Positions 5,465 through 49,242 of a stretch of 64,000 nucleotides of DNA are shown one piece after another (position 1 is the first letter of the stretch; each line of letters begins with the position of its first letter). Made by a program: the position numbers and the translations under genes. The DNA comes from Candidatus Eiseniibacteriota bacterium (lineage in GTDB: Bacteria > Orphanbacterota > Orphanbacteria > Orphanbacterales > Orphanbacteraceae), in the NCBI GenBank assembly GCA_029262235.1, contig JAJCZU010000008.1, positions 124,001 through 188,000 on the forward strand. The letters are read 5' to 3'. A model generated the notes under the pieces. That model was not told where the DNA came from. It was given only the letters and a program-made list of their open reading frames with translations, and did no database searches.

Positions 5465-5466
5465 AA

Positions 5467-21231: not shown

Positions 21232-22083
21232 CTAGAGCTCGACAACGACTTCCAGGTACTCCGAAGGAATCGTGAGCGTGCCGTCGGTCGCTTCGTTCCA
21301 CGAGTCGAGCAGGTCGCGAAGCTCGGCCGTGAACTGCGCACGCTTTTCTTCGTCCAGAGCTTCCAGCACTTTCAACGTCGGCCCGTAGTAGGTGGAGAAG
21401 ATGTCGACGAAGTGATCGACCGATTTGTAACGGAAGTCATACATCTTTTTTTCGATGCGAATGTTCGTGGCGATGTCGCCGAAGAACTCCTGCAGGCGCT
21501 CTTCCGTGCCCCAGAGCGCGGGCGAGTTGAGACCGGCCGGCGGCGGAACGAAACGGCCGACGAGCTTGAACACTTCCCCGATGAAGCTGCCCGGGGTCCA
21601 GTTCGCGAGTCCGATCCTGCCGCCCTTGCGACAGACGCGCGCCATCTCGCTCGCGGCCTTCGCCTGGTTCGGGGTGAACATGACGCCGAACGAAGAGGCA
21701 ACGTAGTCGTAGCTGCCGTCTTCGAACGGAAGATCTTCCGCGTCTGCAACTTTGTACTCGATCGACATCCCGTTCGCTTCGGCGCGGCGGCGGCCGCTAT
21801 CGAGAAGCGCCGGCACGTAATCGGTCGAAGTCACATCGCACCACCGGCGGGCGGCGGCGAGCGTTACGTTGCCATTGCCGGCGGCGACGTCCAGAAACTT
21901 CGCGCCAGGTCTGGCGTCGAGTGCGGCGCAAAGCTGCTCACCCACGATCTGAAGCGTGCTCCCGACAATCGCGTAGTCGCCGGCGGACCACACGGCGTTC
22001 TGCTTCGCCTTGATCGCGTCGTAATCAGGCGTCGGGGCACTCGCTTCGTTCTTTTTCGGTTCGATGGTCGTCGCGTTCTGCAT
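21232..22083 (-). CDS. Class I SAM-dependent methyltransferase (UbiE/COQ5-like)
   Basis: 283 residues. The ATG at 22083 is chosen for its AAGGGAGA ribosome site, 18 codons inside the open frame. SAM-binding motif I is FLDVAAGNGNVTLAAA, then STDYVPALLD, the conserved ADAEDLPFEDGSYDYV acidic/aromatic segment, and CRKGGRIGLANWTP. This pattern is that of ubiquinone/menaquinone or small-molecule methyltransferases. It is flanked by terminators on both sides (22202-22234 and 21143-21170), so it is a single-gene unit; its leader holds a perfect 14-base palindrome, GGCGGGATCCCGCC, at 22179-22192. Confidence 0.87.
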   Translation of the reverse strand: MQNATTIEPKKNEASAPTPDYDAIKAKQNAVWSAGDYAIVGSTLQIVGEQLCAALDARPGAKFLDVAAGNGNVTLAAARRWCDVTSTDYVPALLDSGRRRAEANGMSIEYKVADAEDLPFEDGSYDYVASSFGVMFTPNQAKAASEMARVCRKGGRIGLANWTPGSFIGEVFKLVGRFVPPPAGLNSPALWGTEERLQEFFGDIATNIRIEKKMYDFRYKSVDHFVDIFSTYYGPTLKVLEALDEEKRAQFTAELRDLLDSWNEATDGTLTIPSEYLEVVVEL

Positions 22084-22201
22084 TTTTCTGTCTCCCTTTG
22101 TCGGTTGGTCGTGTGATTGAAACTGCGGGCCGGCCACACCGGCCGTTTCTTCCCTTCACACGGAGCTACGCAAAGGGCGGCGGGATCCCGCCACGCGATC
22201 G

Positions 22202-31825: not shown

Positions 31826-33318
31826 GTCAGCGAATACGATCGATCGGAAAGTGCATGCTCGTAATCGGCGCGCTGTGCGCGCTGGTGTCCTGCGCCCCCT
31901 CGACAAACGACAGCAGCGACGAAGGACTGGAATCCGTTCGACGCCTGATTCGCGAAGCGGAACTCGAAAGCGCGCATTGCGGCGTGCTCGTGCAGAACGT
32001 GGCGTCGGGCGAAACCGTAATCGCCCTGAACTCCGCACGTCTGTTCACGCCCGCTTCCACGATGAAACTCATGACAACCTACGCGGCGCTGCTGCAGTTC
32101 GGGCCTGACTACAGATTCGAGACGACGCTCTGGGTACCGAAGGCGAGCACGGCAGCGGGCACGGTGAGCCACGCGGTCTTGCGCGGCGGAGGCGACCCGT
32201 TTCTCGGAGATCGGGAGTGGGATCGGGACGCGCCGGCCGCGTTCGACTCGCTCGCGGCCCATCTGCGGGCGCGGGGAGTCACGAAGATTGAGGGTGACCT
32301 GATCGTCGACGCCTCGCTGTACGGGAACGAGATCATTCCGGCCAACTGGACGTGGGGCGATCTCGACAAATTCTACTCCGCACCCGTCAGCTCGATGAAT
32401 ATCGGGCACAACGTCGTGATCGTGGACATCCGTCCCGGCGCGGGCGCCGAGAGTCCGGCGCGCGTCCGCATCGAGCCGGACCTCGCGTCCCATATCGCGA
32501 TCGAAACGAGCGCGATCACGGCCGCGGGCAATCGCCGCGCCGTGCACGCGCGTCTGCGGCGCTCGACAGGCACGATGGAAGTCGCGGGCACGATCGGCCT
32601 CGCCCGCGAAAACGCGCGCCTCGCCGTTGCGGTAGCCGACCCCGCGCGGTACGCGGGCCTCTGGTTCCGGCGCGCTCTCGTGCGGGCCGGCATCGAGTGC
32701 GCGGGCGAAGTGCGGGTCACGTATGATCCGATCGATTTCACCGCGCACGAACGCGCGGCGATTCAGAAAAGCGATTCGCTGGCCGAGATCGCGAGGCGCA
32801 TTCTATACGAGAGCGACAACCTCGGCGCGGAATGCCTGGCGCGCCATCTCGCGGTCACGACGGCCGGCGAACCCGGCACGGGCCGGACCGCTCCGGGCGA
32901 AACCGGGGCGCTTGCCGTTCTGCGCGAACGCGGACTGAACCCGACCCCGCCCGTCCGGTTCGACGACGGGTCCGGACTTTCACGAACCAGCCTGCTCGCC
33001 CCCTCCCATCTGACATGGGCCCTGATCGAAGCGACGAAAGAGGACGATTTCGACTTCACCGGGATCGTGCCGCGCCCCGAGGGACACGACAAGCTCGGCG
33101 CGCATCCGATGGCGGATGAACACAAGGCCCGGGTCTCGGCCAAGACGGGCTCGTTTCAGGGAACGCGATGTCTGGCGGGCTACTACACGGACGACGCGGG
33201 CGAGCCGCAATATGCGTTCGCGATCATGGTGAACGGGCTGCCGGGCGATGACGACCCCGCGTTCGCATTCGAAGCGCTCGTCATCGACGCGATCGGCACG
33301 ATCAGCGCGGCACGATAA
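31822..33318 (+). CDS. dacB: D-alanyl-D-alanine carboxypeptidase/endopeptidase, PBP4 type (peptidase S13), lipoprotein
   Basis: 498 residues. All three penicillin-binding motifs are present: STMK (Ser79, Lys82), SDN near 331, KTG near 441. The inserted domain between the first two motifs, with APVSSMNIGHN, is typical of class C PBP4. It trims peptidoglycan stem peptides and cross-links. The start is TTG (TTGA overlap with the membrane gene): from there the leader reads MSQRIRSIGKCMLVIGALCA with lipobox LVSC and Cys24, while the later ATG would lose the basic n-region. Lipid-anchored, periplasmic. Its 3' end overlaps the opposing lysozyme gene by 17 bases. Confidence 0.92.
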   Translation: MSQRIRSIGKCMLVIGALCALVSCAPSTNDSSDEGLESVRRLIREAELESAHCGVLVQNVASGETVIALNSARLFTPASTMKLMTTYAALLQFGPDYRFETTLWVPKASTAAGTVSHAVLRGGGDPFLGDREWDRDAPAAFDSLAAHLRARGVTKIEGDLIVDASLYGNEIIPANWTWGDLDKFYSAPVSSMNIGHNVVIVDIRPGAGAESPARVRIEPDLASHIAIETSAITAAGNRRAVHARLRRSTGTMEVAGTIGLARENARLAVAVADPARYAGLWFRRALVRAGIECAGEVRVTYDPIDFTAHERAAIQKSDSLAEIARRILYESDNLGAECLARHLAVTTAGEPGTGRTAPGETGALAVLRERGLNPTPPVRFDDGSGLSRTSLLAPSHLTWALIEATKEDDFDFTGIVPRPEGHDKLGAHPMADEHKARVSAKTGSFQGTRCLAGYYTDDAGEPQYAFAIMVNGLPGDDDPAFAFEALVIDAIGTISAAR

Positions 33319-34090
33319 GCCCGGACAGATCGGGCCCCCCGCGATTCACACGCGTCAGGTCGGCACCCTTTTCGACGCCGGCAATCTCCGCGTCCCCCTT
33401 CCACTGCCAGAGATGCCAGTCCGCCCAGGTCGCGGGAAGAACGGGTTCTTCCACTTCGTACTCGGCGACCCAGAGCGGGTAAGCACCGAACACGCTCTCG
33501 CCGGAGGAGCCGGCGCCGGGAGAACTATCGCCGGAGGAACCGTCGCCCACCATGTGCGTATCCCAGAACTTTGCCGTGGTGTAGATGATCGGCTTGACGC
33601 CGTAGTGATGTTCCAGGATATCGAGACAGACTTTGAGTCTCTTCGCGAGGCCCGGCTTCGTACCGTGACCGATCAGCTCCACGTCCACGACCGGCGCGAG
33701 GTCGCCCGGTTCGAGCGAAACCGTCTCGATGAAAAAACGCGCCTGCGCCTCGGGATCGTCTTCGGTCACGTAGAAATGATACGCGCCGCGCACGAGTCCC
33801 GACTCTTTCAGCGCACGCCAGTTACGGGCGAACGCCGTGTCTGCGAAATCGACGCCTTCGGTCGCCTTCACGAACGCGAATGTATGACTGCCGTCGGCGA
33901 CGACCTTCCAGTCGACCGAGCCGCTGTGCCCGGACACGTCAACGCCATGGTGCAGCCGTTCGGCGATCTTCGCGTGAGAAGAATCGGTGAGCAGAGTGGG
34001 TGATGAATCGCGTGGCGCGACGGCGGGGTCCTGCACGGCGGCAAATGCAGCAATCCCGAGGCCGCCGAGCAGAACCAGCCAGGCGCGCAA
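33302..34090 (-). CDS. GH25-type lysozyme (muramidase), secreted
   Basis: 262 residues. A short hydrophobic leader (MRAWLVLLGGLGIAAFAAV) precedes a GH25 barrel: GVDVSGHSG with Asp51, FVKATEG, RGAYHFYV, and APVVDVEL with Asp136 and Glu138, the expected catalytic acids, then YPLWVAEY and WHLWQWKG. It hydrolyses the MurNAc-GlcNAc bond of peptidoglycan. A Gly/Ser-rich insertion (about 193-211) interrupts the barrel before YPLWVAEY. The start is a TTG one base after the stop of the small beta protein, which itself follows the caspase-kinase gene by one base, so the three form an operon. Possible lytic effector, or ordinary wall turnover. Confidence 0.87.
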   Translation of the reverse strand: MRAWLVLLGGLGIAAFAAVQDPAVAPRDSSPTLLTDSSHAKIAERLHHGVDVSGHSGSVDWKVVADGSHTFAFVKATEGVDFADTAFARNWRALKESGLVRGAYHFYVTEDDPEAQARFFIETVSLEPGDLAPVVDVELIGHGTKPGLAKRLKVCLDILEHHYGVKPIIYTTAKFWDTHMVGDGSSGDSSPGAGSSGESVFGAYPLWVAEYEVEEPVLPATWADWHLWQWKGDAEIAGVEKGADLTRVNRGGPDLSGLIVPR

Positions 34091-34091
34091 G

Positions 34092-34424
34092 CTACGGCCG
34101 CGCGACGTCGATCTCGCCCTGGGTCGTCGGCGGATCGTCGCGACGGTCTGAGAACGCGGTCACGGTGTACGGATCGTTCTCGGCCGCGGCCACGGTGTGC
34201 ACGGTATGCGGACCGCCGTTCGATCCGTTCGATACCGCAATCGGATTGCTGATCGTGAATGACTCGGAGAAGGGCCAGCTTGCCTGCCCGAAGCTGATCT
34301 GAAAACTGTACGTCGTGTCCGTGGTCGTCCAGGTGATCGTGTCGCCGGCTACCGCACTCTCTGCGGTGTTGCTGAGAACGATCGCACCGTTTGCTACGGA
34401 AATCGTGATTACGTGACTGGCCAT
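34092..34424 (-). CDS. Small beta-rich protein between the caspase-kinase and lysozyme genes, hypothetical
   Basis: 110 residues, no signal peptide, no Cys. Alternating polar/hydrophobic strands (HVITISVANGAIVLS, GDTITWTTTDTTYSFQIS, NDPYTVTAFSD) resemble a cupredoxin-like or Ig-like sandwich, but the copper ligand set is absent. ATG 34424 begins one base after the stop of the upstream giant gene, and AAGGAG lies 8 bases before it, inside that gene. No family recognised. Its place in the operon suggests a regulator, chaperone or substrate of the caspase protein; this is inference. Confidence 0.6.
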   Translation of the reverse strand: MASHVITISVANGAIVLSNTAESAVAGDTITWTTTDTTYSFQISFGQASWPFSESFTISNPIAVSNGSNGGPHTVHTVAAAENDPYTVTAFSDRRDDPPTTQGEIDVARP

Positions 34425-34425
34425 T

Positions 34426-37400
34426 TCAGTTCTCCTTCGGGTTGGGGGAAGCGGCGACCAGGAGTCGCCGGATCTGGTCGAGATCAGAAGCGTGCTTCAT
34501 GCGGAGATGCGGGCCCCGCTCGAGCGCGGCGGCGAGCGCGACGCGAGCATCTTCAGCGAGAGTTCCTTTTCGTGCATTCGTCGGTTCGACCTGCGCCTGA
34601 TGATACAGGACAACACCGCGATGTGCCATCGCCTCGGGCGACCTGTCGTTCAAACGCAGCGCCGTTTCGACCGCCGCACGCGCATCGTCCAGGTCGGGAC
34701 CGACATCGAATCCCTGCGCCATCCGCCACGTCGCGCGGGCGCAAAGCAGCTCCGATCGCACCAGAAATGCATCGGCTTCGAGCGAGTCGATTCGGATCGC
34801 ATTCGCCATGGCATCGAGTCCATCGCGTATCGGGACAATAGGATCGCCGGCGTTCTTCGCCTGCCAGGCGGCGTTCAGCATCGCAAGACGGCCGAGCGAA
34901 ATGAACGCGGAACTGGAGTTCGGATTCACGCTAAACAGGTGATCCAGTTCGTCTCGCGCCTGCCCCAGACTCGCGGAAGGATCATCGCCGCGTAACATCT
35001 CGTACTCCGCGCGCACGCGAAGCGCCGATGCCGCGTTCAGCTTCGCCCAGTAATGCTTCGGGCTGAGTTCGATCGTCTTGTCACTGTGCACGAGTGCCTG
35101 CTCCACCGCACGCTCGGGATCCCGGCCGAAATCCGCTTCGTACTCCGCGAGTACGGCCCACGCGTGCGCGACGTTGTTGTGCGAGTGCCAGTAGTTCGGA
35201 TTTGCTTCGAGCGCACTCTCGAAAGACGCGATCGCGGACTGAAGAAGATCCGTTGCCGGCTCCCCGTCTCCGATCGCCTCTTTCGCCTTCAATAATATTG
35301 CGTTTCCTCTTCCGTCGATGAGATGAGCGAGGTATGCCGTTTCGGGATTGTCCTCGATCGCGCGCGCATAGACCGCGACCGCGCTGTCGAGCGGGACCTT
35401 GCTCGCCTCGCCGTGGTTCTGGAGATAGTAAGCCTGGTCGTGATACGAGCGAGCCAGATAGTAGGACGCAATCGGCTGCTTCGGGTTCAAGGCGAGAGAT
35501 TGATGATAGGCGTCGGCCGCGTCTTCGAGGGTTGCCAGCGGTTCGACACCGGATCCCGTTTGATGGCGCGCGAGCGCGAGATACGTCGCGCCGAGATTCA
35601 GCAGCACTTCGGACCGGCTCGCATCCCGCTCGTGGGCGGCACGAAACGACGCGATCGCGCGCGCGAAATCTTCGGAAGGATCCTCGCCACGCTTCATGCG
35701 ATCCGACGCGATCGACTTGAACAGAAGACCGATCCGCGTGTCGAGCGCGGCGGAAGGCGCGAGGGCGCGGGCGCGCTCATAAGACGTAACGGCCTCTGCG
35801 TAACTCGCGGACGGGCTCTCGCCGACGCTCCCCTGATGCTGTGCCGCCAGCTTGTGCGCGGTGCCGAGCCGCTCCCACGTGTCGGCCTTCGTGGAGTCGA
35901 CGGCAAGCGCCCGCTTCGCGTCGTCCATTGTCAGAACGAGATGTTCGCCGGGATCGAGCCCGCGGCTGATTCTGTAATCCGCCACCCTCTCGTGAAGGCG
36001 GCACCCCAGCAGGTACGCCTCGGCATCGTCGGGGTTCAGCGTCAGCAGCGCGTCCCTCGCTTCGAGACCGAGACCGAGCGGCGCCTCCACGTTCCCGCCG
36101 CCGCCCGTCACTTCGAGGAACATCATCCAGTTCGCGAGTTCCCCGATCCCCTCGTAAATACGAGGATCGCTTCCGGCGACATCCGATGCCGCCTGGAACG
36201 CAGCGCCGGCCAGTCGAAACGACTCGAGCGCCTGCTCATACTCGCCGCGGTTCGCCTGCTCCTGCCCCCGCGCCGCGAAAACGCGCCCCTCGAGTTCACG
36301 CGCTTCGTAAAACCAGCTGAGCCGGTCGTACGCCTTGTGCGCGCTTCGGAGGGCCTCGTCGAAATCTCCTTCACAGAGAGCGAGGATCGCCGCGACGAAC
36401 TCCGGCGACTCCACCTTGAGCCCCGCCGTCTGTCGCAGGTAATCGAGAGCCGGGTCACGATACTCGATTTCGATCCGACGCCGTTCCGCCTCCCGCTCTT
36501 CCTCGCTCCGGAGCTGGTTCGCGGTTTCGAGCGCATCCTGATACAGATAGCTCATCACGACTCCGAGAGCGTAGGCGACCTCGGGTTCCCGATCACCCGC
36601 CGCCCACGCGGTCTCGAGGCGCGCGCGCGCTTCTTCGTACGAACGCAGCCCGAGAAAACCGCGCCCGAGAGCGTAGTTCCCGGGTCCGCGCGCGAGATCG
36701 CCCACTTCAGCCATGCGCTGTTCGAGCTCGGCCATGTTGCTCATGATCATCGCGCGCTCGGGTCGAATGTCGTGCAGCGGCGCCATCGCGCTGTAGCGCG
36801 CGATCGCCTCGATCCGTTCCACCTGCTGGCCGAACGACTGCGCGAGGCGCGATCGCTGCGCGGCCTCCCACTGGTTGCGCGCGCCCCAGCCGAGCGCGAT
36901 GAGAATGAACACGAGTCCAGCGACCGCGATCCCGACCACGGGTTTGTTGCGCGCGGCTTTGCGACGCAGCCTGTAGAGCAACGTGGTCGGGCGCGCCTCG
37001 ATCGGTTCTCCGTCGAGATACCGCCGGATGTCTTCGGCGAAAGCGCGGGCGGAAACGTAGCGATTCTCGCGGTTCTTGCGCAGGCACTTCTGCGCGATCG
37101 ACTCGAGATCCTGCGGAATCGCGATCGTTCCCTTCCGCATGCGCGGCGGCAGATCGTTCATGACCTGCACGAGAATTTCGAGCGGCGTGTTTCCCTGGAA
37201 CGGCGGGTGCCCGGTCAGAATCTCATAAAACGTGGCGCCGAGGCTGTAGACGTCCGTGCGGCGGTCGAGGTCGTGCACTTCGCCGCGCGCCTGCTCGGGC
37301 GACATGTAAAGCGGCGTGCCGAGAAGCGCGCCGGTCATCGTCATGCCGACCTGATCCGTCTCGCGCGCGAGACCGAAGTCCATGACGAACGGCTTCCATC

Positions 37401-40101
37401 CGGTCCGCGTTTTTTCCACCACGATATTCGACGGCTTCAGGTCGCGATGAATCAGCCCGGCGCGATGCGCTTCGTGCACGCCTTCGGCCACTTCCATCAT
37501 CATTACGAGCTTCTGTTCGAGCGTCATCTGCTCCGCGGCGCGGCTGAGCGGCAGTCCGTCCACGAACTGCATGGCGATGTACGGTTTCCCCTCGACCTCG
37601 GCGACTTCGTAGATCTTGCAGACGCGTTCATGTTCGACCCGAGCCTGCGCGCGCGCCTCCTGTTGAAAACGTTCGATGAGTTCGGGGTCGTCGCCATGAA
37701 TGAACTTGAGCGCGACCGGGCGGCCGAGTGTTCGATCGAATGCTTTGAAGACGCGGCCCATGCCACCGCCGCCGATAAAGGAGATGAACTCGTATCGATC
37801 CCAGTTCTCGACGGGAAACCGGCGCGAAGCCCCGGTGCTCGATCCGCGCGTCACGGTTCCCGGCGTGGTCACCGTCACGGCGCCCGAAAGTTCACTGTCG
37901 CGCAGCGTGCGGTCGTTCGAGCCGTCGGCGCCATCCTTGATTGTGCCTGCCGAGTCGTCAGGCCCGGGCGAAAGCTCAGGGGGCGAAGCGCCCCCTGGCA
38001 CCTTCGGCCCCGGCGCTTGAAACCCGCGCTGCACGCGAAGCTCCACCTGCGACATCGTCCATTCCGATACCGGGTTCGAACGGTAGCGAAGCCGCCGAGT
38101 CTGCGGCGCTTCCACAGCAACCGCGGCCAGCATCTCTTCCAGCGCGCCGGAGGGCGCGGCGCTTTCTTCCTCGCGCGCGGCGGATTCACTGAGCGCGGGG
38201 AACTCGAGCCATCGAAAACTCGTCGGCCCCGTCGTCGCGAATACTTTCAGCAGGTCCATGCCGAATCGGGCGCCGTCTGCAAGACTCGCCCGCAATGGGA
38301 GCGTGACTTCCTGGCCCGGATCGAACGGCATGTACGCCGAGTCGTCGCGCGCCGGGAAGATCTGCGTGATCGCCCGGGAAGCGTCGAGATCGAGAACCGT
38401 AACGTTCAGCGTTTCGGTCGAAGCGTTCCTGATGCGCAGGAACGTCCATTCCCCTTCGGTCATGACCGGAGTATTGCCCGGATCGTCGAAAGGAACGGGG
38501 CTCGGCTGCGTTCCCGGCTCGTAGTTCTCCTGCGTACCCGTAAGCTCCACTTCGAGAGCGCCGGCGAGCGGGGAGTCGGGTTCGTCGTTCGCGAGATCCC
38601 ACACGTTTCTGTAGCGCGCCAGATGATCGAGACGGTCGACGAGCCTGCGCACGGCGTCGCGTGAGCCGGCGGCGATGGGAGGCGGCATGAACGGAAGCGG
38701 TTCGCCCGCCGCGTCGCGAATCGCGAACGCACCCTGCCGGTCGAGAGCCACGTGATAGTCGCCTTCATCGCCTGATTCCTGCAGCGCGACGAACCGGCCC
38801 GCACCGTCGCGCAGCAGTGTGGCGACATCATCGAGCGTGCGCGACCCGGCCGCGTGATCGAGAACGACTTTTCGCAGCAGCGTGATTCTTCCCGGATCCG
38901 TGAGCACGGCGGGCGCACCCGCTTCGATCGGCTCGTCGCGCAGCGATTCGACGATTCCGGCAGTAGACGTCGCGCTGTCCACGCTTTCGATCGCCACGAT
39001 CGCCACGCGACGATCGAGATCGGCAACATCGGCGCCGGCGGAATAGACGACGAACAGCGCCCCTTCACCCAGCCCGTGCGCTCTCCCGGCGTTCAGGCGC
39101 ACGCGCTTCGACTCTTCGTCGAATGAAACGACGCTCACGGAAAAGTGCGACGCGACTCGCTCCGTGCCGAACGCGACACGGCTCCCTTCGCCCTGCAGCT
39201 GTGGGGTCTGGTCGGGGTACGTTCCGTGCACTTTCCCGATGATACGGTCGTGCAGCGTTTTGTAGCTGGCGCCCGTGCCGAGCCGGCCGAGCGCTTCGAG
39301 CCACCAGTACGTGAGCGCGCCATGCTTCTTCTCGCCGACCTGAATTTCGCGCGCGAGTTCCGATGCGCGACACGCGGAAAGCAGAACGTACCCGTCCGGC
39401 TCGGGCAGCCAGCCGCCGCCGACCGTGAGCGAGCGCGTTGCGGGTCCGCGGGCCGCGCGCCAGCTCGCGCGCAGGCTGTCGTCATCCGCAACGAGGCTCA
39501 CGTCAGGAAACGGCGTGCGGTCGGGCGCGCCGATGCCTCGTACCGCGCTGTATCCGTCGGACCGCGTCGCGCCGCCCGAATGGCAGCTGTCGAGCACGAT
39601 CGTCACAAGCAGTTCCGCCTCGACCATTTCACGCAGAAGATGGGCCAGTTCGATGTCGCGCAGGTGTTGCGCGCCGGGAAGGCGTACATCCGACGGAATC
39701 AGCGTCTCGTCGAGTCCGCTCGTTCCCTTCAGCTCCGGAAACCGCGTCGGCACCCGGCCGCCATGACCCGCGTAGTGAATGTAGATCTGATCGCCGCGAT
39801 TCATGCGCGCGCGCGTGCGCCGAAACGCCTTCACGATGTTTTCGTATGTCGGAATACGGTCGGGCGATTCGGGCGGCGGTTCGGGAGAGCGATTCGTTGC
39901 AGTCAAAACCTCGATGCGCTCATCGGGAACGCGCAGCTTCGTTCGCAGAAACTGCTCGACCATCGCGATGTCGTTCACACAGCCGCGCAGGCACGAGATC
40001 GGCCGGACATCAGGGTCCGTCGGAGGATAGTAATAATCGATGCCGATCAAAAGGGCGTGAAGCCGGGGGGTCAATAGGCGTCTCCTCGTTTCACTATCCA
40101 T
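34426..40101 (-). CDS. Caspase - DUF4384 - Ser/Thr kinase - TM - TPR giant protein
   Basis: About 1891 residues from the ATG at 40101. Caspase-fold peptidase (1-~340): LLIGIDYYYP, catalytic His113 in HYAGHGG and Cys173 in DSCHSGG. A barrel-like region and a DUF4384-like domain follow (EWTFLRIRNASTETLNVTV, ~540-640). Kinase ~770-1040: IGGGGMGRVF, VALKF, HRDLKPSN, DFGLA, GTPLYMSPEQA, all key residues intact. One membrane span ~1055-1075 (VVGIAVAGLVFILIALGW). About 800 residues of TPR-like helices end the protein. Caspases cut after acidic or basic residues; the kinase could gate the protease or vice versa. Alternative start: TTG at 40074 with GAGGAG six bases upstream, which would fit the TATAAT at 40105-40100. 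First gene of a three-gene operon. Confidence 0.9.
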   Translation of the reverse strand: MDSETRRRLLTPRLHALLIGIDYYYPPTDPDVRPISCLRGCVNDIAMVEQFLRTKLRVPDERIEVLTATNRSPEPPPESPDRIPTYENIVKAFRRTRARMNRGDQIYIHYAGHGGRVPTRFPELKGTSGLDETLIPSDVRLPGAQHLRDIELAHLLREMVEAELLVTIVLDSCHSGGATRSDGYSAVRGIGAPDRTPFPDVSLVADDDSLRASWRAARGPATRSLTVGGGWLPEPDGYVLLSACRASELAREIQVGEKKHGALTYWWLEALGRLGTGASYKTLHDRIIGKVHGTYPDQTPQLQGEGSRVAFGTERVASHFSVSVVSFDEESKRVRLNAGRAHGLGEGALFVVYSAGADVADLDRRVAIVAIESVDSATSTAGIVESLRDEPIEAGAPAVLTDPGRITLLRKVVLDHAAGSRTLDDVATLLRDGAGRFVALQESGDEGDYHVALDRQGAFAIRDAAGEPLPFMPPPIAAGSRDAVRRLVDRLDHLARYRNVWDLANDEPDSPLAGALEVELTGTQENYEPGTQPSPVPFDDPGNTPVMTEGEWTFLRIRNASTETLNVTVLDLDASRAITQIFPARDDSAYMPFDPGQEVTLPLRASLADGARFGMDLLKVFATTGPTSFRWLEFPALSESAAREEESAAPSGALEEMLAAVAVEAPQTRRLRYRSNPVSEWTMSQVELRVQRGFQAPGPKVPGGASPPELSPGPDDSAGTIKDGADGSNDRTLRDSELSGAVTVTTPGTVTRGSSTGASRRFPVENWDRYEFISFIGGGGMGRVFKAFDRTLGRPVALKFIHGDDPELIERFQQEARAQARVEHERVCKIYEVAEVEGKPYIAMQFVDGLPLSRAAEQMTLEQKLVMMMEVAEGVHEAHRAGLIHRDLKPSNIVVEKTRTGWKPFVMDFGLARETDQVGMTMTGALLGTPLYMSPEQARGEVHDLDRRTDVYSLGATFYEILTGHPPFQGNTPLEILVQVMNDLPPRMRKGTIAIPQDLESIAQKCLRKNRENRYVSARAFAEDIRRYLDGEPIEARPTTLLYRLRRKAARNKPVVGIAVAGLVFILIALGWGARNQWEAAQRSRLAQSFGQQVERIEAIARYSAMAPLHDIRPERAMIMSNMAELEQRMAEVGDLARGPGNYALGRGFLGLRSYEEARARLETAWAAGDREPEVAYALGVVMSYLYQDALETANQLRSEEEREAERRRIEIEYRDPALDYLRQTAGLKVESPEFVAAILALCEGDFDEALRSAHKAYDRLSWFYEARELEGRVFAARGQEQANRGEYEQALESFRLAGAAFQAASDVAGSDPRIYEGIGELANWMMFLEVTGGGGNVEAPLGLGLEARDALLTLNPDDAEAYLLGCRLHERVADYRISRGLDPGEHLVLTMDDAKRALAVDSTKADTWERLGTAHKLAAQHQGSVGESPSASYAEAVTSYERARALAPSAALDTRIGLLFKSIASDRMKRGEDPSEDFARAIASFRAAHERDASRSEVLLNLGATYLALARHQTGSGVEPLATLEDAADAYHQSLALNPKQPIASYYLARSYHDQAYYLQNHGEASKVPLDSAVAVYARAIEDNPETAYLAHLIDGRGNAILLKAKEAIGDGEPATDLLQSAIASFESALEANPNYWHSHNNVAHAWAVLAEYEADFGRDPERAVEQALVHSDKTIELSPKHYWAKLNAASALRVRAEYEMLRGDDPSASLGQARDELDHLFSVNPNSSSAFISLGRLAMLNAAWQAKNAGDPIVPIRDGLDAMANAIRIDSLEADAFLVRSELLCARATWRMAQGFDVGPDLDDARAAVETALRLNDRSPEAMAHRGVVLYHQAQVEPTNARKGTLAEDARVALAAALERGPHLRMKHASDLDQIRRLLVAASPNPKEN

Positions 40102-40129
40102 TATAGACACGGCTGCAACGGCAGGTCGA
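40100..40129 (-). promoter_or_regulatory. Promoter of the caspase-kinase operon
   Basis: On the minus strand TCGACC (40129-40124), an 18-base spacer, then a perfect TATAAT (40105-40100). Transcription would start near 40093, after the ATG at 40101 but before the GAGGAG site (40087-40082) and TTG at 40074. Confidence 0.5.
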
Positions 40130-40138
40130 TGCCCATCG

Positions 40139-40168
40139 TTGACAGCGCACTCGCGACAGCCGTACCAT
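40139..40168 (+). promoter_or_regulatory. Promoter of the SLOG-caspase/TIR/SLATT operon
   Basis: A perfect TTGACA (40139-40144), an 18-base spacer and TACCAT (40163-40168). Expected start near 40175, giving a leader of only about 8 bases before the ATG at 40183, which has no ribosome site. It is back to back with the caspase-kinase promoter. Confidence 0.5.
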
Positions 40169-40182
40169 GAGAATCAAGCATC

Positions 40183-42411
40183 ATGTCAAACTCTCCGCAC
40201 CCCACTGAGAAGGACGCCCCGGATCAGCTGGCGCAACAAGTTCGCGAAGCTGCAACAGCGGGGCCCGGCTCGCTCCACGCTCTCTGGTTCCAATGGTGCT
40301 CGAAAGAAACACCACCACCCGCCGCTTCGCTCCTCGTGGCGAAGGAGCTGCTCGAGCTCGCGTCGCCCGAATATGCGCTCGAAATTCTCACCGATGTCGA
40401 AGGAGTGCGCGCCGAACAGCTCCGCGCGTTTGCGTATGCGAAAACGGGCAAAGTCGACGAAGCGATCCGTCTGCTCGAAAGTCTGCGCGCGGCGGGACAT
40501 TTCGATTCCGAGACGGCGGGACTTCTCGGCGGACGATACAAGCAGAAATGGCGGAAGACGGGAAATCCGGCGCTTCTGCAGGCGGCGTATCAGGCGTATC
40601 GCGATTCGTACGATGCCGAACCGAACCATTACACGGGGATCAACGCCGCCTCCCTCGCTCTCTCGATCGAAGAACCGGCTGATTCCAAGCGCATTGCGGG
40701 CGAAGTGCTGGCTGCGATCGAGGCCGTCCCCGGGTCAGAAGTCGACTACTGGCAGGCCGCAACGAGAGCGCAGGCGCACATCCTTCTCGGTGATCTGGAC
40801 GCCGCGCGCCGGGAGTATCGCCGCGTCGTAGCCGCCGACTGGGGCGCCGTTCAAAACATCGCGATCATGAGGCGCGAAGCTCGAAGCGACCTCGCGAATC
40901 TGGGAATCGAACCGGGCACGCTCGACGATGTACTCGCGGTGCCGCGCATTGCGGCCTTCAGCGGGCACAGGATCGACGAGGCGAACCGCGCGAAGCCCCG
41001 CTTCCCGGAATCGAAGGTCGGCGAAGTTCGACTTGCCATTCGGGAACGGCTTCACGAACATGCCGTCGGGTTCGGATTCTCTTCCGCCGCCAACGGTGCG
41101 GACATTCTGTTTCTCGAAGAACTCCTGGAGCGCGGCGGGAGCGCGCACGTTGTTCTTCCCTTCCCCCGCGAAAACTTTGCGCGCCTCTCTGTCGGCCCCG
41201 ACTGGCAGCGGCGCTTCGATCGCGCCCTCGATGATCCGCGCGTCGAGGTCGAAACACTTCTCGAAGCCGTACCAGCCGAACCCGCGGCGATCGAAGAGTC
41301 CTTCCATCGATGCAATGAAGCCGTGCACGACAAGGCCGTCCGGTTCGCGGCGCGGCTGAACGAGGAACCGATCCTGCTCGCGGTATGGGACGGACAGCCG
41401 GGGGACGGAGCAGGGGGCACCGCCGACTGTGTCAAGCTGTGGCGCGACGAGGGCCGGGTGGTCGAAACCATTGCGATCGGTGCGGGCGAAAGCGAAAGTG
41501 AAGACGATGCCGCGGGCGGTGCAGACGGCAAAGCTGCCGGGGGCGAACAGCCGAAGCGCATGACCAGGCGCAAGCCCGGGCCGGGCGGCCCCGCGAAACA
41601 CGGAAAGCGCGCGATGGCGCTCGGCGGCGCCATCGTGACGCCGTCTGCGCCGTCACAGGGTCGCAGCGCGTATCGTGCCAGGCACTGTCTCTGCATCGGC
41701 ATCAACGACTACAAGAACTGGACGCCGCTCCAGAACGGCGAGAACGACGCGCGCGAGGTCGCGAACACGCTGCAGGAACGCTTCGCGTTCGAACCACTCG
41801 TGCTCACGAGCGAGAAAGCGACCCGCGACGGGATCTACCGCGCGATCGCCGAAGAACTGAGCCCCGGCGTGCAGGAAGACGACCTCTTCGTACTCTTTTT
41901 CGCGGGACACGGTCATACCGAACACACGCCCGACGGACAGAAGCGCGGGTACGTCGTTCCCGTCGATGCGCCGAAGGGACTTTCGCCGAACCTGATTCCG
42001 ATGTCGGATCTGAGCTTCTGGTGCGGCTATCTCCCGTGCCGCCACATTCTCTATGTCTTCGATTCGTGCTTTTCGGGCCTGCTCACGCTCCGGTCGGGAG
42101 CCGATCGCCGCACGCAGGATATGTTGAAGCGTAAAGCGCGTGTTGCCATTACGTCGGGCGCGGCCGACCAGGAAGTGCTCGACATAAGCGATACGAACCA
42201 CTCGGCGTTTACGAACCAGTTACTCGGCGCGCTGCGGGGCGATCTTTCGTCCGAGCGCGGCGACTTCACTGCAACGGAACTGTTCAGTTTCCTCGAGGAA
42301 AGAGTCGCGAACGTCGCCGCGCAGATCGGGGGCTACCAGACGCCCACGTTCGGCCAGCTCGCCGGACACGAAAGCGGTGACGTTCTCTTTCAGCTGCCAA
42401 AGGAGGAGTAG
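40183..42411 (+). CDS. TPR-like / SLOG-like / caspase fusion protein
   Basis: 742 residues. Residues 40-250 are helical repeats like the TPR-S or MAP3K TRAFs-binding domain (RYKQKWRKTGNPALLQAAY, then AEPNHYTGINAASLAL). Residues ~252-430 look like a Rossmann SLOG sensor: AAFSGHR at 258-263, GFGFSSAANGADILFLEELL, VVLPFPRENF. A linker (435-497) is acidic and Gly-rich, then basic (KRMTRRKPGPG). The C-terminus is a caspase: CLCIGINDYKNW, His576 in FAGHGH and Cys629 in VFDSCFSG. SLOG domains in conflict systems bind nucleotide-derived signals, so signal binding may release the protease. One base separates it from the TIR gene. Not membrane bound. Confidence 0.85.
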   Translation: MSNSPHPTEKDAPDQLAQQVREAATAGPGSLHALWFQWCSKETPPPAASLLVAKELLELASPEYALEILTDVEGVRAEQLRAFAYAKTGKVDEAIRLLESLRAAGHFDSETAGLLGGRYKQKWRKTGNPALLQAAYQAYRDSYDAEPNHYTGINAASLALSIEEPADSKRIAGEVLAAIEAVPGSEVDYWQAATRAQAHILLGDLDAARREYRRVVAADWGAVQNIAIMRREARSDLANLGIEPGTLDDVLAVPRIAAFSGHRIDEANRAKPRFPESKVGEVRLAIRERLHEHAVGFGFSSAANGADILFLEELLERGGSAHVVLPFPRENFARLSVGPDWQRRFDRALDDPRVEVETLLEAVPAEPAAIEESFHRCNEAVHDKAVRFAARLNEEPILLAVWDGQPGDGAGGTADCVKLWRDEGRVVETIAIGAGESESEDDAAGGADGKAAGGEQPKRMTRRKPGPGGPAKHGKRAMALGGAIVTPSAPSQGRSAYRARHCLCIGINDYKNWTPLQNGENDAREVANTLQERFAFEPLVLTSEKATRDGIYRAIAEELSPGVQEDDLFVLFFAGHGHTEHTPDGQKRGYVVPVDAPKGLSPNLIPMSDLSFWCGYLPCRHILYVFDSCFSGLLTLRSGADRRTQDMLKRKARVAITSGAADQEVLDISDTNHSAFTNQLLGALRGDLSSERGDFTATELFSFLEERVANVAAQIGGYQTPTFGQLAGHESGDVLFQLPKEE

Positions 42412-42412
42412 C

Positions 42413-43480
42413 GTGAATCCGCTCGAACCGGAAGGCAAAATCTTCATCAGCTATCGGCGGGCCGACTCACCCGGCGTCGCGGGCCGGCTTGCCGACAGCC
42501 TGAAAGCTTACTTCGGCGAGAATCGCGTGTTCCGCGATATCGGCGGGATTCGCGCGGGGGCGGCGTTCGACGAGGTCATCAACGATACATTGACAGGGAC
42601 CGACGCGCTGATCGTGCTCATCGGCAAAGACTGGCTCACCGCCAGCGACGACAACGGAGTGCGCAGGCTGGACGATCCGGATGACGTGCTTGCGCGCGAG
42701 ATCGAGTTCGCGCTCGAAAGGGACGTGCCCGTGTTCCCGATTCTGATCGAGGATACGCGCATGCCGACCGCGGCGGACCTTCCCGAAAAACTCGCGCCCC
42801 TTGCCAGGCGAAACGGAATCTCGATTACGGACGAACGATGGGACCAGGACGTAACGCGCCTCGCGAAGATCGTGGCGCTCGACATTCCCGGCTCCGTTGC
42901 CGAACTGAAACTCGCGCGCATGCGCGTGCTCGTTCTTTCGATTCTTCTCGGCGTCATGGCGTTCAGCGCCGTTCGATTCGCGTGGACGGCTTACGGGGCT
43001 CACTACTTTCTCCTTTCCAGCAATCCGAATCTCACCGAAATGCAGCGAGCGAATCTCGCGCGCGAGGGAGAGCCGCTCCAACAAACCCTGCCACTCAAAA
43101 TTCTCCCCGGCAGCGCGTCCTATACGAACGAGCCGGGCGGCTGGGGAGACAGCAGTGCCGTCCCCGCATGGCAGGACCGCTTCGCCAGGATCTACGATGC
43201 TCAGTTCCGGTTCTTCCCCCCACTCGCCGCTGTCGTGAACTACATCGGAATCGGGCTTGCCTGTTTCCTGCTCACGCTGCACCTTCCCCTGCTTGCGAAA
43301 GACGCGCACGCTTACGTCCTCGCCGCGATCTGGGCCGGTCTCCTGGGGATGATTCTCTTCCTTCTTCTCTATATGCTGTCGGGAGGACCATTCGATACGA
43401 TTGCTGTGTACGGCGGATCGAATATCATCATCACCGGCATGCTCGTTCTCATGGGCCTGTCCGGTTTCAAAGCGCGGTAA
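42413..43480 (+). CDS. TIR-domain protein with four predicted membrane spans
   Basis: 355 residues. A GTG start is chosen: it lies 6 bases after a perfect AGGAGG and 1 base after the caspase stop. TIR domain 8-~135: KIFISYRRADSPGVAGRL, VFRDIGGIRAGAAF, ALIVLIGKDWL and LAREIEFAL, where Glu96 sits where TIR NADases hold the catalytic Glu. One span at ~170-190 (VLVLSILLGVMAFSAV) and three more at ~270-350 (VNYIGIGLACFLLTL, YVLAAIWAGLLGMILFLLLY, NIIITGMLVLMGLSGF) flank an extracytoplasmic loop of ~75 residues. TIR domains in Thoeris-like systems cleave NAD or make cyclic ADP-ribose isomers; a direct role at the membrane is also possible. Confidence 0.87.
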   Translation: MNPLEPEGKIFISYRRADSPGVAGRLADSLKAYFGENRVFRDIGGIRAGAAFDEVINDTLTGTDALIVLIGKDWLTASDDNGVRRLDDPDDVLAREIEFALERDVPVFPILIEDTRMPTAADLPEKLAPLARRNGISITDERWDQDVTRLAKIVALDIPGSVAELKLARMRVLVLSILLGVMAFSAVRFAWTAYGAHYFLLSSNPNLTEMQRANLAREGEPLQQTLPLKILPGSASYTNEPGGWGDSSAVPAWQDRFARIYDAQFRFFPPLAAVVNYIGIGLACFLLTLHLPLLAKDAHAYVLAAIWAGLLGMILFLLLYMLSGGPFDTIAVYGGSNIIITGMLVLMGLSGFKAR

Positions 43481-43491
43481 AGGGACCGAAA

Positions 43492-43938
43492 ATGGATCAA
43501 GTCACCTATCTCAAAGAACGCGTCGACGATCAGATCGCGTGGTACGGCAGGAAGAGCAAGTCGAACAAGTACGCATTTCGCACGCTCCGCATCGTCGAAC
43601 TGATCGCCGCGACGTCGATTCCGCTCATCGCCGGGTTCTCCGATTCCATCGCCAGCTATCCGCTCGTGATCGGCCTGATCGGCTTCGCCGTTGCCGTGCT
43701 CGCCGGCATTCTCACGATCAATCAATATCAGGAGAACTGGGTGCAATATCGGGCCGCGTGCGAGTCCTTGAAGCGTGAAAAACTTTTATTCCAGACGGGC
43801 ACCGCGCCCTACGACGACACCGATTCCTTTTCGAAATTCGTCGAACGGATCGAGTCGATGCTGGCAAGCGAACACAACAGCTGGAGGTCCTACGCCGGAA
43901 ACAAAGGCGCCGCACCGCAGGGAACCAGCGACGCCTGA
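43492..43938 (+). CDS. DUF4231 / SLATT-like two-span membrane protein
   Basis: 148 residues. N-terminal amphipathic helix (YLKERVDDQIAWYGRKSKSN), two adjacent membrane spans (about 35-55, LIAATSIPLIAGF, and 60-80, LVIGLIGFAVAVLAGIL), then a helix with QYQENWVQYRAACESLKREK, a conserved pattern of DUF4231 and the related SLATT families. SLATT proteins are proposed pore-forming effectors or sensors coupled to nucleotide-signal or TIR systems. ATG 43492, 11 bases after the TIR gene, with AAAGGGA upstream. Last gene of the operon. Confidence 0.82.
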   Translation: MDQVTYLKERVDDQIAWYGRKSKSNKYAFRTLRIVELIAATSIPLIAGFSDSIASYPLVIGLIGFAVAVLAGILTINQYQENWVQYRAACESLKREKLLFQTGTAPYDDTDSFSKFVERIESMLASEHNSWRSYAGNKGAAPQGTSDA

Positions 43939-46233: not shown

Positions 46234-49200
46234 ATGTTTGAAGACGACGGCAAAACCCAGCCCTCATTCCAGCCGGAAGTCGGGAGAACGGTCAACCAGT
46301 ACCGGATCCTGGCCAAGATCGGCGCCGGCGGCATGGGCGAAGTGTACCTTGCCGAAGATACGAAGCTCGACCGCAGCGTCGCGCTGAAGTTTCTGCCCCT
46401 GACGCTCGCTGTCGACCCCACTCTGCGCGCGCGCTTCACGCGTGAAGCGAAAGCCGTCGCCTCCCTTCACCATCCGAACATCGTTCACGTGTACGAAGTC
46501 GGCGAACACCAGAACCGGCCGTATATCGCAATGGAGCATGTCGACGGAGCGCCGCTCCAGGACATTCTTGCGAAGGGACCGCTCCCGCTGCCAACGGCAC
46601 TCTCGTATCTCGAAGCGCTCGCCGGGGCTGTCGAAGAGGCGCACCGTTCCGGCGTCGTGCATCGCGATATCAAGCCGGGCAACATCGTCGTCGACTCGAG
46701 CGACCGCCCGAAGCTGCTCGACTTCGGGCTTGCCGTGCTCCCGCGCGACGAGGCGATCACGAAAACGGGCACCACACTCGGCACCGTCGGTTACATGGCC
46801 CCCGAGCAGGCGCGCGGCGAAGCCGTCGACCAGCGCTCCGATCTCTTTTCGCTCGGCGTCGTGCTCTACGAAATGGTAACGGGGCATCAACCGTTCCGCG
46901 CGGACACCGAAGTGGCGACACTGGAACGCGTCCTGCACCGCGAGCAGGATCCGCTGGCCCGCTTTCGCGCGGAAGTTCCCGCCGGCATCGAGCAGATCGT
47001 CGCAAAGCTTCTGCAGAAGGATCCCGCACTCCGCTATCAGACCGCGGCCGATCTCGCCGCGGACATCAAGCGCGAGCGGCGGTCGAGCGAAGGATCGATG
47101 CACTCGGCGGCCATGAGCACTCCGGCGACGACAGCGACGACAGCGGCGACTGCCGCGCCAGCGCCCCCCGCAAAAAAGCGCGCCTCCTGGCTCGTTCCGG
47201 CCGCCATGCTCGGTGTGCTCGCGATTGCGGCATTCGTATTCAAGCCATGGGACCGCATCCCCGCCCCCCTCGTACCCGAAGCCGACGCAAGCCAGAGCCG
47301 CCTCGTCGTTCTCGACTTCCAGAACCTCGGCGGCGGCGAGGGAGGCGAAAACCTCGGCACCATCGTTTCGAGCCTGCTCGTGACCGATCTCTCGGAGTCG
47401 CGCTTTCTCCAGATCGTTTCCCGCCAGCGCCTTTTCGAGGTCGCCCGGTCACTCGGCCACTCTTCAGACGGTCCGATCGACCACGGACTCAGCGAGGAGA
47501 TCGCCCGAAAGGTCGGCAGCCAGTGGATGCTGTCGGGGACGATTCTGCAGACCGAGCCGAACATCGTGCTCACGAGCCAGATCGCGGACGTCGCGAACGG
47601 CAGCATTGCGTCATCACAGCGAGTGACGGGCGAGCCGGGCGAGGATGTCTTTGCCGTCGTCGACAAGCTGACGCGCGCCGTTAAAAGCGACCTCGCCCTT
47701 CCGAGCGGCGCCGAAAGCGAGCACGATCCCGAAGTCGCGCTCATTACGACGAACTCGCCCGAAGCGTACAAGCACTTCGTAAAAGGCCGTGATTACTTCA
47801 GCCGTTTCTTCAAGATCGAGGCACTGGAGGAATTTCAGCGTGCGATCGAAATCGACTCTACGTTCGCCTCGGCCTACCTCATGCTTTCCGTAGTCAAGAA
47901 ATCCGAAGTGAGGGATGACGAAGCCGCCGTGTATCTCAAGCACGCCGTGCGCCACATCGACAAGGCGAGCTGGCGCGAGCGTCTGCTGATCCAGTCGAGA
48001 CAGCTCGAAGAACGCGGGCAGCTGGATTCGGCGCTCACAAAACTTCTCGAGATCACGGACCGCACACCGCACGATCCCGAAGCCTGGCACATCCTCGCGG
48101 CCATGGCAGGCCGCTCGCATCCGAACTTCATCAAATGGACCAAGCGCGTGATCGAAGCAGACTCGTCGTTCGCGCCCGCCTATAACCAGCTCGCGTACGC
48201 CTACATGGAAGCGGATCGTTTCGAAGAAGCGAACGACATGATCCGCCGGTATGTCGCGCTTCTCCCCGATGATCCGAACCCGTATGACTCGCAGGGCGAT
48301 ATTTTCGCCCGCCAGGGCAAGCTCGAGGAGGCGCGGGCCGCATACAGGAAAGCGTACGAGATCAAACCCGACTTCCTGCACCAGTCGCGCTACAAGCTCG
48401 GCATCGTGAATCTGCTACTGGACGACGACAGCGAGGCACTGCGCCTGTTCCGGGAGCTTGCCGACGGCGACAGACCCGACGAGCGTTCGCTTGGACGGCG
48501 CGGCATCGTCGAGGCTTATCTGTATCGCGGGCAATACGATGCGGCAACGAAGCTTCTCACGACCGAAATCGCCGACGCGGACGCGAATGGCCGCTTTGAA
48601 GTCTCCATCCTTCGCTACCAGTATCTTGCTCACGTGTACTCGATTCTCGAGCAGCACGACAAGGCGATCGCGATGATCGAGAAGGCGGTGGCACTCTATG
48701 AAGAGCACGCCCCTGACGGCTACGTCTGGATTTACGAGTCGGCAACATGGGTCGCGTGCCGCGCCGACCGCGAAGATCTGGCTGAGCGAGCGATCGCGGC
48801 TCTCGAGTCTCTGCAAGGACTGAACAGCGGCGACGCGGAGTACCTCCCTGCGAACATGCATGGAGCGCGCGGCGTTCTCGCGATGAAGCGCGGCCGAAAC
48901 GAGGACGCGGTCCGATCGACGCGCGCGCTGCTCGACCGCTTCGTCGACTTCTACAATCTCTACTATCATGGCAGGGCTCTCCGCCTGGCCGGTCAAACGC
49001 GCGAGGCGATCGAAGTCCTGGAGCGCGCCGCCCGGCATGTGGACGAAAGCCGTCTCATGTCGTTCCCGCTCAATATTCTCGTCTCCTACGAGCTCGGGCT
49101 CGCGTACGAAGCCGAAGGCCACACGAGTGATGCGATCGCGGTGTACGAGAAGTTTCTGGGAATCTGGCGCGACACGGAATACACAACGCCCGAGATGAAG

Positions 49201-49242
49201 GACGCCGCGGCGCGGCTTGCGGTTCTGAAGCCGGGATCCTGA
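46234..49242 (+). CDS. Ser/Thr kinase - TM - FlgO/TolB-like - TPR protein
   Basis: 1002 residues. Kinase ~23-280: IGAGGMGEVYLA, Lys52 in VALKF, VHRDIKPGN near 143, DFGLA near 160, GTVGYMAPEQA. An Ala/Thr/Pro-rich linker (~290-315) leads to one membrane span (~320-338, LVPAAMLGVLAIAAFVF). Next comes a FlgO/TolB-N-like domain (~345-465, VVLDFQNLGGGEGGENLG, SQWMLSGTILQTEPNI), then about ten TPRs to the end. This architecture is common in large signalling genomes; the outer part would sense or bind partners. All catalytic residues intact. The start ATG follows CGGGAGCGACTCGATTC. Target unknown. Confidence 0.9.
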   Translation: MFEDDGKTQPSFQPEVGRTVNQYRILAKIGAGGMGEVYLAEDTKLDRSVALKFLPLTLAVDPTLRARFTREAKAVASLHHPNIVHVYEVGEHQNRPYIAMEHVDGAPLQDILAKGPLPLPTALSYLEALAGAVEEAHRSGVVHRDIKPGNIVVDSSDRPKLLDFGLAVLPRDEAITKTGTTLGTVGYMAPEQARGEAVDQRSDLFSLGVVLYEMVTGHQPFRADTEVATLERVLHREQDPLARFRAEVPAGIEQIVAKLLQKDPALRYQTAADLAADIKRERRSSEGSMHSAAMSTPATTATTAATAAPAPPAKKRASWLVPAAMLGVLAIAAFVFKPWDRIPAPLVPEADASQSRLVVLDFQNLGGGEGGENLGTIVSSLLVTDLSESRFLQIVSRQRLFEVARSLGHSSDGPIDHGLSEEIARKVGSQWMLSGTILQTEPNIVLTSQIADVANGSIASSQRVTGEPGEDVFAVVDKLTRAVKSDLALPSGAESEHDPEVALITTNSPEAYKHFVKGRDYFSRFFKIEALEEFQRAIEIDSTFASAYLMLSVVKKSEVRDDEAAVYLKHAVRHIDKASWRERLLIQSRQLEERGQLDSALTKLLEITDRTPHDPEAWHILAAMAGRSHPNFIKWTKRVIEADSSFAPAYNQLAYAYMEADRFEEANDMIRRYVALLPDDPNPYDSQGDIFARQGKLEEARAAYRKAYEIKPDFLHQSRYKLGIVNLLLDDDSEALRLFRELADGDRPDERSLGRRGIVEAYLYRGQYDAATKLLTTEIADADANGRFEVSILRYQYLAHVYSILEQHDKAIAMIEKAVALYEEHAPDGYVWIYESATWVACRADREDLAERAIAALESLQGLNSGDAEYLPANMHGARGVLAMKRGRNEDAVRSTRALLDRFVDFYNLYYHGRALRLAGQTREAIEVLERAARHVDESRLMSFPLNILVSYELGLAYEAEGHTSDAIAVYEKFLGIWRDTEYTTPEMKDAAARLAVLKPGS

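Follow-up and report, generated by a model that had tools for sequence, protein, structure and literature searches.

The DNA studied here is a stretch of 64,000 nucleotides (the window) from contig JAJCZU010000008.1 of a Candidatus Eiseniibacteriota bacterium, and its positions 33302-43938 hold two divergent operons with six open reading frames (ORFs). The right operon, on the + strand, carries genes for three proteins, one with TPR-S, SLOG and caspase domains, one with a TIR domain and about four spans, and one of the DUF4231/SLATT kind. It is rather probable that this operon forms a nucleotide-signalled abortive-infection module with the TIR protein as the source of the signal, the TPR-S/SLOG part as its receiver and the caspase as the output. 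The left operon, on the - strand, encodes a giant protein with caspase, kinase, transmembrane and TPR parts, a 110-residue protein and a GH25 lysozyme, as assigned by Pfam and hydropathy. An earlier note on this DNA, made from the letters alone, had described two back-to-back operons of these parts with spacings of 1 to 11 bases, and this layout holds: the six ORFs are all in place, Pfam and a structure model recover the domains, and the gaps within the operons are 1, 1, 1 and 11 bases. Direct results of computation are the genes, the TPR-S and SLOG folds, the motifs, the promoter-like sites with their conservation, and the finding that the TPR-S/SLOG core is repeatedly paired with TIR genes. 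The features of the right operon are the following.

40183..42411, + strand: TPR-S/SLOG/caspase protein, 742 residues (Pfam, structure model, PDB comparison, motifs)
about 40216-40938, + strand: TPR-S region of this protein (Pfam, structure model)
about 40939-41493, + strand: SLOG region of this protein (structure model)
about 41680-42351, + strand: caspase region of this protein, H576/C629 (Pfam, motif)
42413..43480, + strand: TIR protein of 355 residues from GTG, with about four hydrophobic spans behind the TIR domain (Pfam TIR_2, alignment, hydropathy)
about 42440-42862, + strand: TIR domain, E96 in the usual glutamate column (Pfam TIR_2, domain alignment)
43492..43938, + strand: DUF4231/SLATT_1 small membrane protein, 148 residues (Pfam)
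40139..40168, + strand: promoter-like site of the right operon, TTGACA-18-TACCAT (motif scan; both hexamers identical in the sister genome)

The sensor protein and its partners

The 742-residue protein was expected to be TPR-like, SLOG-like and caspase, and the last two parts stand, while the first is more precisely a TPR-S domain (PF20308, E 1.2e-20, 74.5 bits against a cut-off of 27.6); weak PF20308 matches are common, occurring in 5 of 14 control genomes, with one above the cut-off. Pfam also finds Peptidase_C14 (E 2.1e-20) and its ASK1-type model MAP3K_TRAF_bd (E 2.7e-8) in the protein, and no Pfam model matches residues 253-437, where the SLOG domain lies. The structure model, built from 26 alignment rows, is confident over approximately residues 5-434, with most ten-residue blocks at 80-97 and one at 71. 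The matches listed by Foldseek itself are TPR proteins, and the SLOG match surfaces when the matches are realigned: residues 253-437 then fit YpsA (2nx2) with Z 17.7 and a root-mean-square deviation (rmsd) of 2.8 over 157 aligned residues. Because of this match the SLOG domain is, as modelled, real and of the YpsA sort, and its polar positions H262, D265, R273 and D307 are invariant in the 26 rows. For the TPR-S half the best match in the same realignment is the central regulatory region of ASK1 (5ulm, Z 19.4, rmsd 3.7, 233 aligned). Many other TPR proteins fit these helices with Z 14-17 (RapI being the best of them at 17.1), so that in the model, judged by fold alone, ASK1 leads by a modest margin. 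In a profile search by sequence, ASK1 is matched over 179 positions (E 2.3e-5 and 1.1e-4), and four matches with better E-values, three to MamA and one to a designed TPR, cover about 60 positions each.

The caspase part of the model is poor, with a confidence score (pLDDT) below 50 for nearly all residues, because 24 of the 26 rows have no caspase, and the right caspase therefore rests on Pfam, the motif and the generic caspase model of PADLOC (PADLOC-DB 2023, E 4.6e-18). When searched alone against PDB sequences it matches GSU0716 weakly (3bij, E 0.003); the full 742-residue protein and the TIR protein found no match in that search. The TIR gene starts one base 3' of the gene for the 742-residue protein. 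Its product matches TIR_2 of Pfam (E 7e-10), so that both the SLOG and the TIR domain predicted for this operon are present, and its glutamate column is the same as in most TIR domains found around the relatives. PADLOC-DB 2023 gives weak TIR matches to SAVED_TIR (1.1e-8) and ThsB (5.2e-8), and hydropathy shows five overlapping peaks, corresponding to about four spans. The SLATT protein matches DUF4231 (E 7e-24) and SLATT_1 (E 4e-14) and has a single hydropathy peak. The enzyme motifs looked for are all there, and they are given their usual meanings here.

The reading in which the TIR protein makes the signal and the SLOG domain receives it, already proposed in the earlier note, is the best one, since both domains are real and have their active-site motifs, and since TIR genes are found again and again beside the core. 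Infection would activate the membrane-bound TIR protein, which would turn NAD+ into a signal of the ADP-ribose type. Once this signal was bound to the TPR-S/SLOG part of the 742-residue protein, the fused caspase would cut cell proteins. The SLATT protein may damage or open the membrane as a second output, and the kinase-caspase giant would probably act as a second protease arm gated by phosphorylation. We infer each of these steps, as well as the trigger, the ligand, the substrate, the target and any link between the operons. Two other roles suggested earlier, the caspase cutting an inhibitor and the kinase setting the threshold, found no support. According to passages of PMC9503650, YpsA-like SLOG domains include receivers of cyclic ADP-ribose (cADPR) variants, and SLATT is predicted in a part of PMC7159879 to be a nucleotide-responsive pore.

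Relatives of the core and known systems

A scan of genome contigs with the TPR-S and SLOG part gave 44 loci, the sister included, in three formats. In the first, the core is fused to a class III cyclase, and the hosts are cyanobacteria, planctomycetes, Verrucomicrobia, Bdellovibrionales, Desulfobulbaceae and proteobacteria. Of nine such proteins tested, eight have a Pfam cyclase match, which for one of the eight is below the cut-off; locus L045 has no Pfam cyclase match, yet it aligns. An HD domain stands in front in one of the nine and an N-terminal RyR domain in two, both cyanobacterial. Members of the RyR family from phages bind or cut cADPR signals, as described in parts of a preprint (PMC13232231), so that RyR on the cyanobacterial relatives fits the signal reading. 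These two RyR-TPR-S-SLOG-cyclase proteins (L041 7536-9770, with a TIR-WD40 gene beside it, and L042 7392-9704) carry four nucleotide-linked domains in each chain and are a good target for finding the signal. Proteins of the second format carry an additional domain at the N-terminus and lack one at the C-terminus; in this format loci lie beside a patatin-like gene, and three, in Flavobacteriaceae, have SLATT. In the third format, found in Actinobacteria, a TPR-S gene neighbours a SLOG-patatin gene. The patatin labels come from the motif, except L063 (Pfam), and the fused patatin from the motif only. Such actinobacterial pairs lie at L037 3560-6668, behind a large protein that is WD-repeat-like by eye, at L060 7164-10291, where a TIR gene comes after the pair, and at L068 6356-9680.

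Only the window and the sister genome (L031, the contig of L040, Gemmatimonadetes bacterium SS_bin_27) showed the caspase fusion. In a 24-row tree these two fall together with the cyclase group, with 100/100 support for the split from the second format, and a branch that sets the cyclase rows apart appears in just 6% of 200 bootstrap trees. The tree covers neither the loci of the third format nor L047 and L064, and it takes the cyclase labels of L043, L050, L051 and L053 from the alignment instead of Pfam. A caspase in the place of the cyclase fits this tree, with no stable branch order inside the group. In a separate scan of 386 genomes, with at most four candidates scored in each, four genomes matched, one of them (G200) through the SLOG half only; both halves are thus found in 3 of the 386, the own and sister genomes included.

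Neighbouring genes were counted from 47 loci (L036-L083 minus L040, the sister), of which 29 were kept because TPR-S and SLOG share a gene there or lie in neighbouring ones. Among the 18 dropped, L036, L055, L066, L071 and L072 have TPR-S and SLOG apart and a TIR gene also close. In 16 of the 29 core loci a TIR gene is no farther away than 2.5 kb. Of the 127 genes near the core 17 are TIR genes, compared with 2 of the 78 beyond 4 kb (Fisher p 0.006, a value that overstates independence, as the loci were found by resemblance to the 742-residue protein, include the near copies L042/L043/L050, L052/L053 and L046/L051 and have unequal contig ends). Two Bdellovibrionales, nearly identical to each other, have the TIR gene directly 3' of the gene for the TPR-S-SLOG-cyclase protein, and in G245 one intervening gene separates a TIR gene from TPR-S-SLOG. 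SLATT adjoins the core in L070 and L074 and is 3.2 kb off in L061 (3 of the 29 loci). Based on these counts, TIR and SLATT genes recur with homologues of this core in distant phyla, alongside other outputs. The neighbourhood models were made from the window proteins and detect caspases and SLATT proteins poorly when these are distant, so that absences elsewhere are not firm. Across these loci the core is constant and the output changes, being a cyclase, a patatin (adjacent or fused) or a caspase; one conserved, putatively nucleotide-sensing core has its output swapped, with TIR as a frequent partner.

The closest known counterparts are the loci with a fused cyclase (L041, L042, L044, L046, L048, L049, L052, L054 and their near copies), which have the same core and, in many cases, TIR next door. 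They differ from the window by a C-terminal cyclase in place of the caspase, and neither SLATT nor a kinase-caspase giant was detected beside them. A kinase gene is next door in L049 of Desulfobulbaceae, where the TIR, HD-TPR-S-SLOG-cyclase and kinase genes lie on one strand (1968-6782), an independent case of a kinase beside the core. The Flavobacteriaceae loci L061, L070 and L074 resemble the window in having TPR-S and SLOG with SLATT, and TIR genes in L070 and L074, but their output is a patatin-like protein (by motif) encoded by a gene of its own, they have an additional N-terminal domain and lack a caspase, and they belong to a separate clade.

Type IV Thoeris was reportedly described by Rousset et al. 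in 2025. In this system N7-cADPR switches on a caspase-like protease of the same operon, according to sections of PMC12847820, and as in the window a TIR gene and a caspase-like effector share one operon; here, however, the caspase is carried by TPR-S and SLOG, and SLATT is added, the comparison being one of descriptions only. In type I Thoeris, as presented in passages of PMC9503650, TIR works with ThsA, whose SLOG domain receives a cADPR variant. The window likewise has a TIR gene beside an effector with a SLOG receiver, but the output of type I is a sirtuin NADase, whereas the window has a caspase, no sirtuin in Pfam and an added TPR-S domain. By analogy, the logic of the right operon resembles types I and IV, and it would combine the SLOG receiver of the former with the caspase output of the latter in one operon. 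We do not file the window as Thoeris, because the type I sirtuin is absent and the type IV effector was compared by description only. The claim that no described system has this set was nevertheless too strong, as TIR with a caspase and TIR with a SLOG receiver are each known, in the sections of the Thoeris papers named above. A cGAS/DncV-like nucleotidyltransferase, as in cyclic-oligonucleotide-based antiphage signalling systems (CBASS), was found by Pfam in none of the six proteins, and PADLOC agrees (for the giant, among its best 25 of 34 families).

TPR-S conflict proteins couple a Rossmann nucleotide domain with an effector, have TIR nearby and are predicted to bind NAD+-derived signals. 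The 742-residue protein has such a coupling of Rossmann domain and effector, with TIR nearby. The TPR-S/ASK signalosome systems are said to come from Burroughs and Aravind in 2020. The window is like them in that its TPR-S domain appears, in the structure model, related to the central region of ASK1, but it does not have the kinase in the same chain, since the kinase sits in the divergent giant. No report of TPR-S, caspase, SLOG and TIR together was found in a library of open-licence papers, and this suggests that, within that library, the caspase-output form of the core is undescribed.

The divergent giant and the sister genome

The features of the left operon are as follows.

34426..40110, - strand: giant, frame from GTG 40110 (Pfam; sister copy 84% identical)
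about 39190-40059, - strand: caspase of the giant (Pfam)
about 37045-37794, - strand: Ser/Thr kinase of the giant (Pfam)
34092..34424, - strand: 110-residue protein without a Pfam family (sister copy 86% identical)
33302..34090, - strand: GH25 lysozyme with a signal-peptide-like hydrophobic N-terminus (Pfam, hydropathy)
40100..40129, - strand: promoter-like site of the left operon, TCGACC-18-TATAAT (motif scan; both hexamers identical in the sister)

In the giant, Pfam finds Peptidase_C14 at residues 18-307 (E 1.5e-14), Pkinase at residues 773-1022 (E 2e-40) and TPRs, and hydropathy gives a single span at residues 1058-1076. The region expected to be DUF4384 is there, but it scores only below the cut-off (E 0.005, 17.3 bits against 27). 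By inspection the motifs are H116/C176 for the caspase and K802/D890/D911 for the kinase. Translation probably starts at TTG 40074 behind AGGAG and not at GTG 40110, because the sister has the ATG at 40101 changed and a base deleted just after it. The caspase matches metacaspases in the PDB sequence search (6w8s, E 3.5e-14), and the best PADLOC matches of the giant are PD-T4-6 kinase models (E 1.8e-77), which we take as generic kinase resemblance. Since the giant matches 45 places in its own genome, itself counted, nearly all through the kinase half, its apparent make-up is that of a kinase-TPR protein of a local type to which a caspase-DUF4384 unit has been joined. One of the 45 is a second kinase-TPR protein in the window, 3' of the right operon (46234-49242). 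The structure model of the 110-residue protein (pLDDT 39 on 2 rows) was too poor for use.

The sister genome (G001, 82% complete) keeps the order of penicillin-binding-protein gene, 110-residue gene, giant, 742-residue protein (87% identical) and TIR up to its contig end. Because the order of the giant, the divergent TPR-S-SLOG-caspase gene and TIR is kept there, the two-operon arrangement is more than chance. All four promoter-like hexamers are retained in the intergenic region of the sister. The first hexamers of the two operons are 9 bases apart, and 40000-40260 holds two promoter-like sites against a mean of 0.1 in shuffles; judging from these back-to-back sites the two operons are probably co-expressed.

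It is nevertheless a serious alternative, though one we hold to be less probable than not being so, that the operons are two unrelated neighbours, the left one being a household kinase-caspase signalling unit placed divergently by chance. The 45 matches through the kinase half would suit this, and so would the closest left-hand relative outside the genus (G328, 42% identical over 681 residues), which has caspase-DUF4384 without the kinase and no TPR-S/SLOG match in the 14 kb fetched around it. A relative of the caspase-DUF4384 part without kinase, in a genome from outside the phylum, lies at L111 1750-3828; by eye, its neighbours are a CHAT-protease-like frame and frames ending in peptidoglycan-binding-like repeats. 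Against chance placement stand the sister genome, which has the same arrangement and has retained the two promoter-like sites, and the finding that caspases occur in only 2 of the 7 phylum genomes, yet two lie back to back here. The phylum's five other genomes have neither the 742-residue protein nor the full-length giant, nor any caspase at threshold. In the sister both detected caspases (2 of 2) are at this locus; the PF00656 search of the own genome gave three places and missed the giant caspase, though hmmscan finds it. A further caspase of the own genome is a 582-residue frame at L097 (G000:C10:97000-110000; caspase at C10:103930-104601), 1-2 kb from a kinase gene, so that caspase and kinase are neighbours there as well.

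A stronger connection can also be imagined, in which the two operons are one signalosome: the ASK1-related TPR-S domain would read the TIR signal and be coupled in trans to the Ser/Thr kinase, one caspase would be nucleotide-controlled and the other kinase-controlled, and death would need both inputs. We regard this joint claim as improbable. If it were true, the locus would be a bacterial sensor-kinase-caspase circuit of the sort linked in animal stress-induced cell death. As it stands, the locus brings an ASK1-like sensor together with a kinase and two caspases, which would open the bacterial origin supposed for ASK signalling to a direct test.

Other readings and the surrounding genes

Several observations weigh against an abortive-infection module made up of the parts named above. 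The two operons together are known from two genomes of one genus only: their predicted co-occurrence was borne out in the sister and not in the phylum's other five genomes. Beyond the genus no locus was seen to combine the two halves, the 29 core loci having no caspase among their listed neighbours under models of limited reach. The sister contig stops inside the TIR gene, before the position of SLATT, which is thus unconfirmed there, and 13 of the 29 core loci have no TIR gene within 2.5 kb. Viral contigs gave no relative, nor did phage records give one of the TPR-S/SLOG part, and ten other window proteins searched with PADLOC gave a single doubtful mads_2 match. Furthermore, TIR itself could be the killer through NAD+ depletion, and SLOG could be an enzyme and not a receiver.

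The lack of a defence-island mark among the other window proteins tested would also suit a developmental or stress-suicide system that is not phage defence, as would the large kinase-TPR expansion, which suggests complex signalling. We find this less likely than the abortive-infection module, as the patchy core (3 of 386 genomes) and the exchange of outputs are typical of conflict systems. It is unlikely, too, that TIR is the effector, the TPR-S/SLOG/caspase protein sensing a cue and its caspase activating the membrane TIR, with NAD+ emptied and SLATT perforating the membrane. The fusion of TIR to about four spans speaks for such a role, and relatives pair the core with TIRs of many architectures, TIR-WD40 included. 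According to sections of PMC12847820, NAD+ depletion by bacterial TIRs is known, but in the described Thoeris operons the TIR protein supplies the signal to which an effector encoded beside it, itself a nucleotide binder, responds, and a SLOG domain in the partner protein suits a receiver (passages of PMC9503650).

It is also improbable that SLOG is an NAD+- or nucleotide-cleaving enzyme with TPR-S as the receiver in the same chain and TIR as an accessory. Its four invariant polar positions, which would fit catalysis, suit binding equally well. The binding of NAD+-derived signals by TPR-S, reportedly predicted by Burroughs and Aravind in 2020, would suit this arrangement. Some SLOG members are N-glycosidases, but the closest solved structure seen is YpsA, whose clade includes receivers (both in passages of PMC9503650). 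The signal-receiving role of SLOG, with TIR as the maker, thus remains preferred.

A defence island around the locus is rejected for now: of ten window proteins in Pfam, nine belong to ordinary families and one has no match, and PADLOC, applied to ten that excluded others such as the kinase at 46234, gave the one doubtful match. This match, to mads_2, lies at 21235-22137 (E 2.4e-18 over part of the model). There is likewise no sign of a phage origin of the locus in the viral contigs or phage records.

The GH25 lysozyme (Pfam E 1e-39; D136/E138 by inspection) had been proposed as a killer, a role that finds no support: the gene is missing at the sister locus and has no match in the 6 other genomes of the phylum, being present in 1 of 7, and we reject it as a core part. 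It looks like a recent arrival. At 33302-34090 it overlaps end to end with a penicillin-binding-protein gene (Peptidase_S13).

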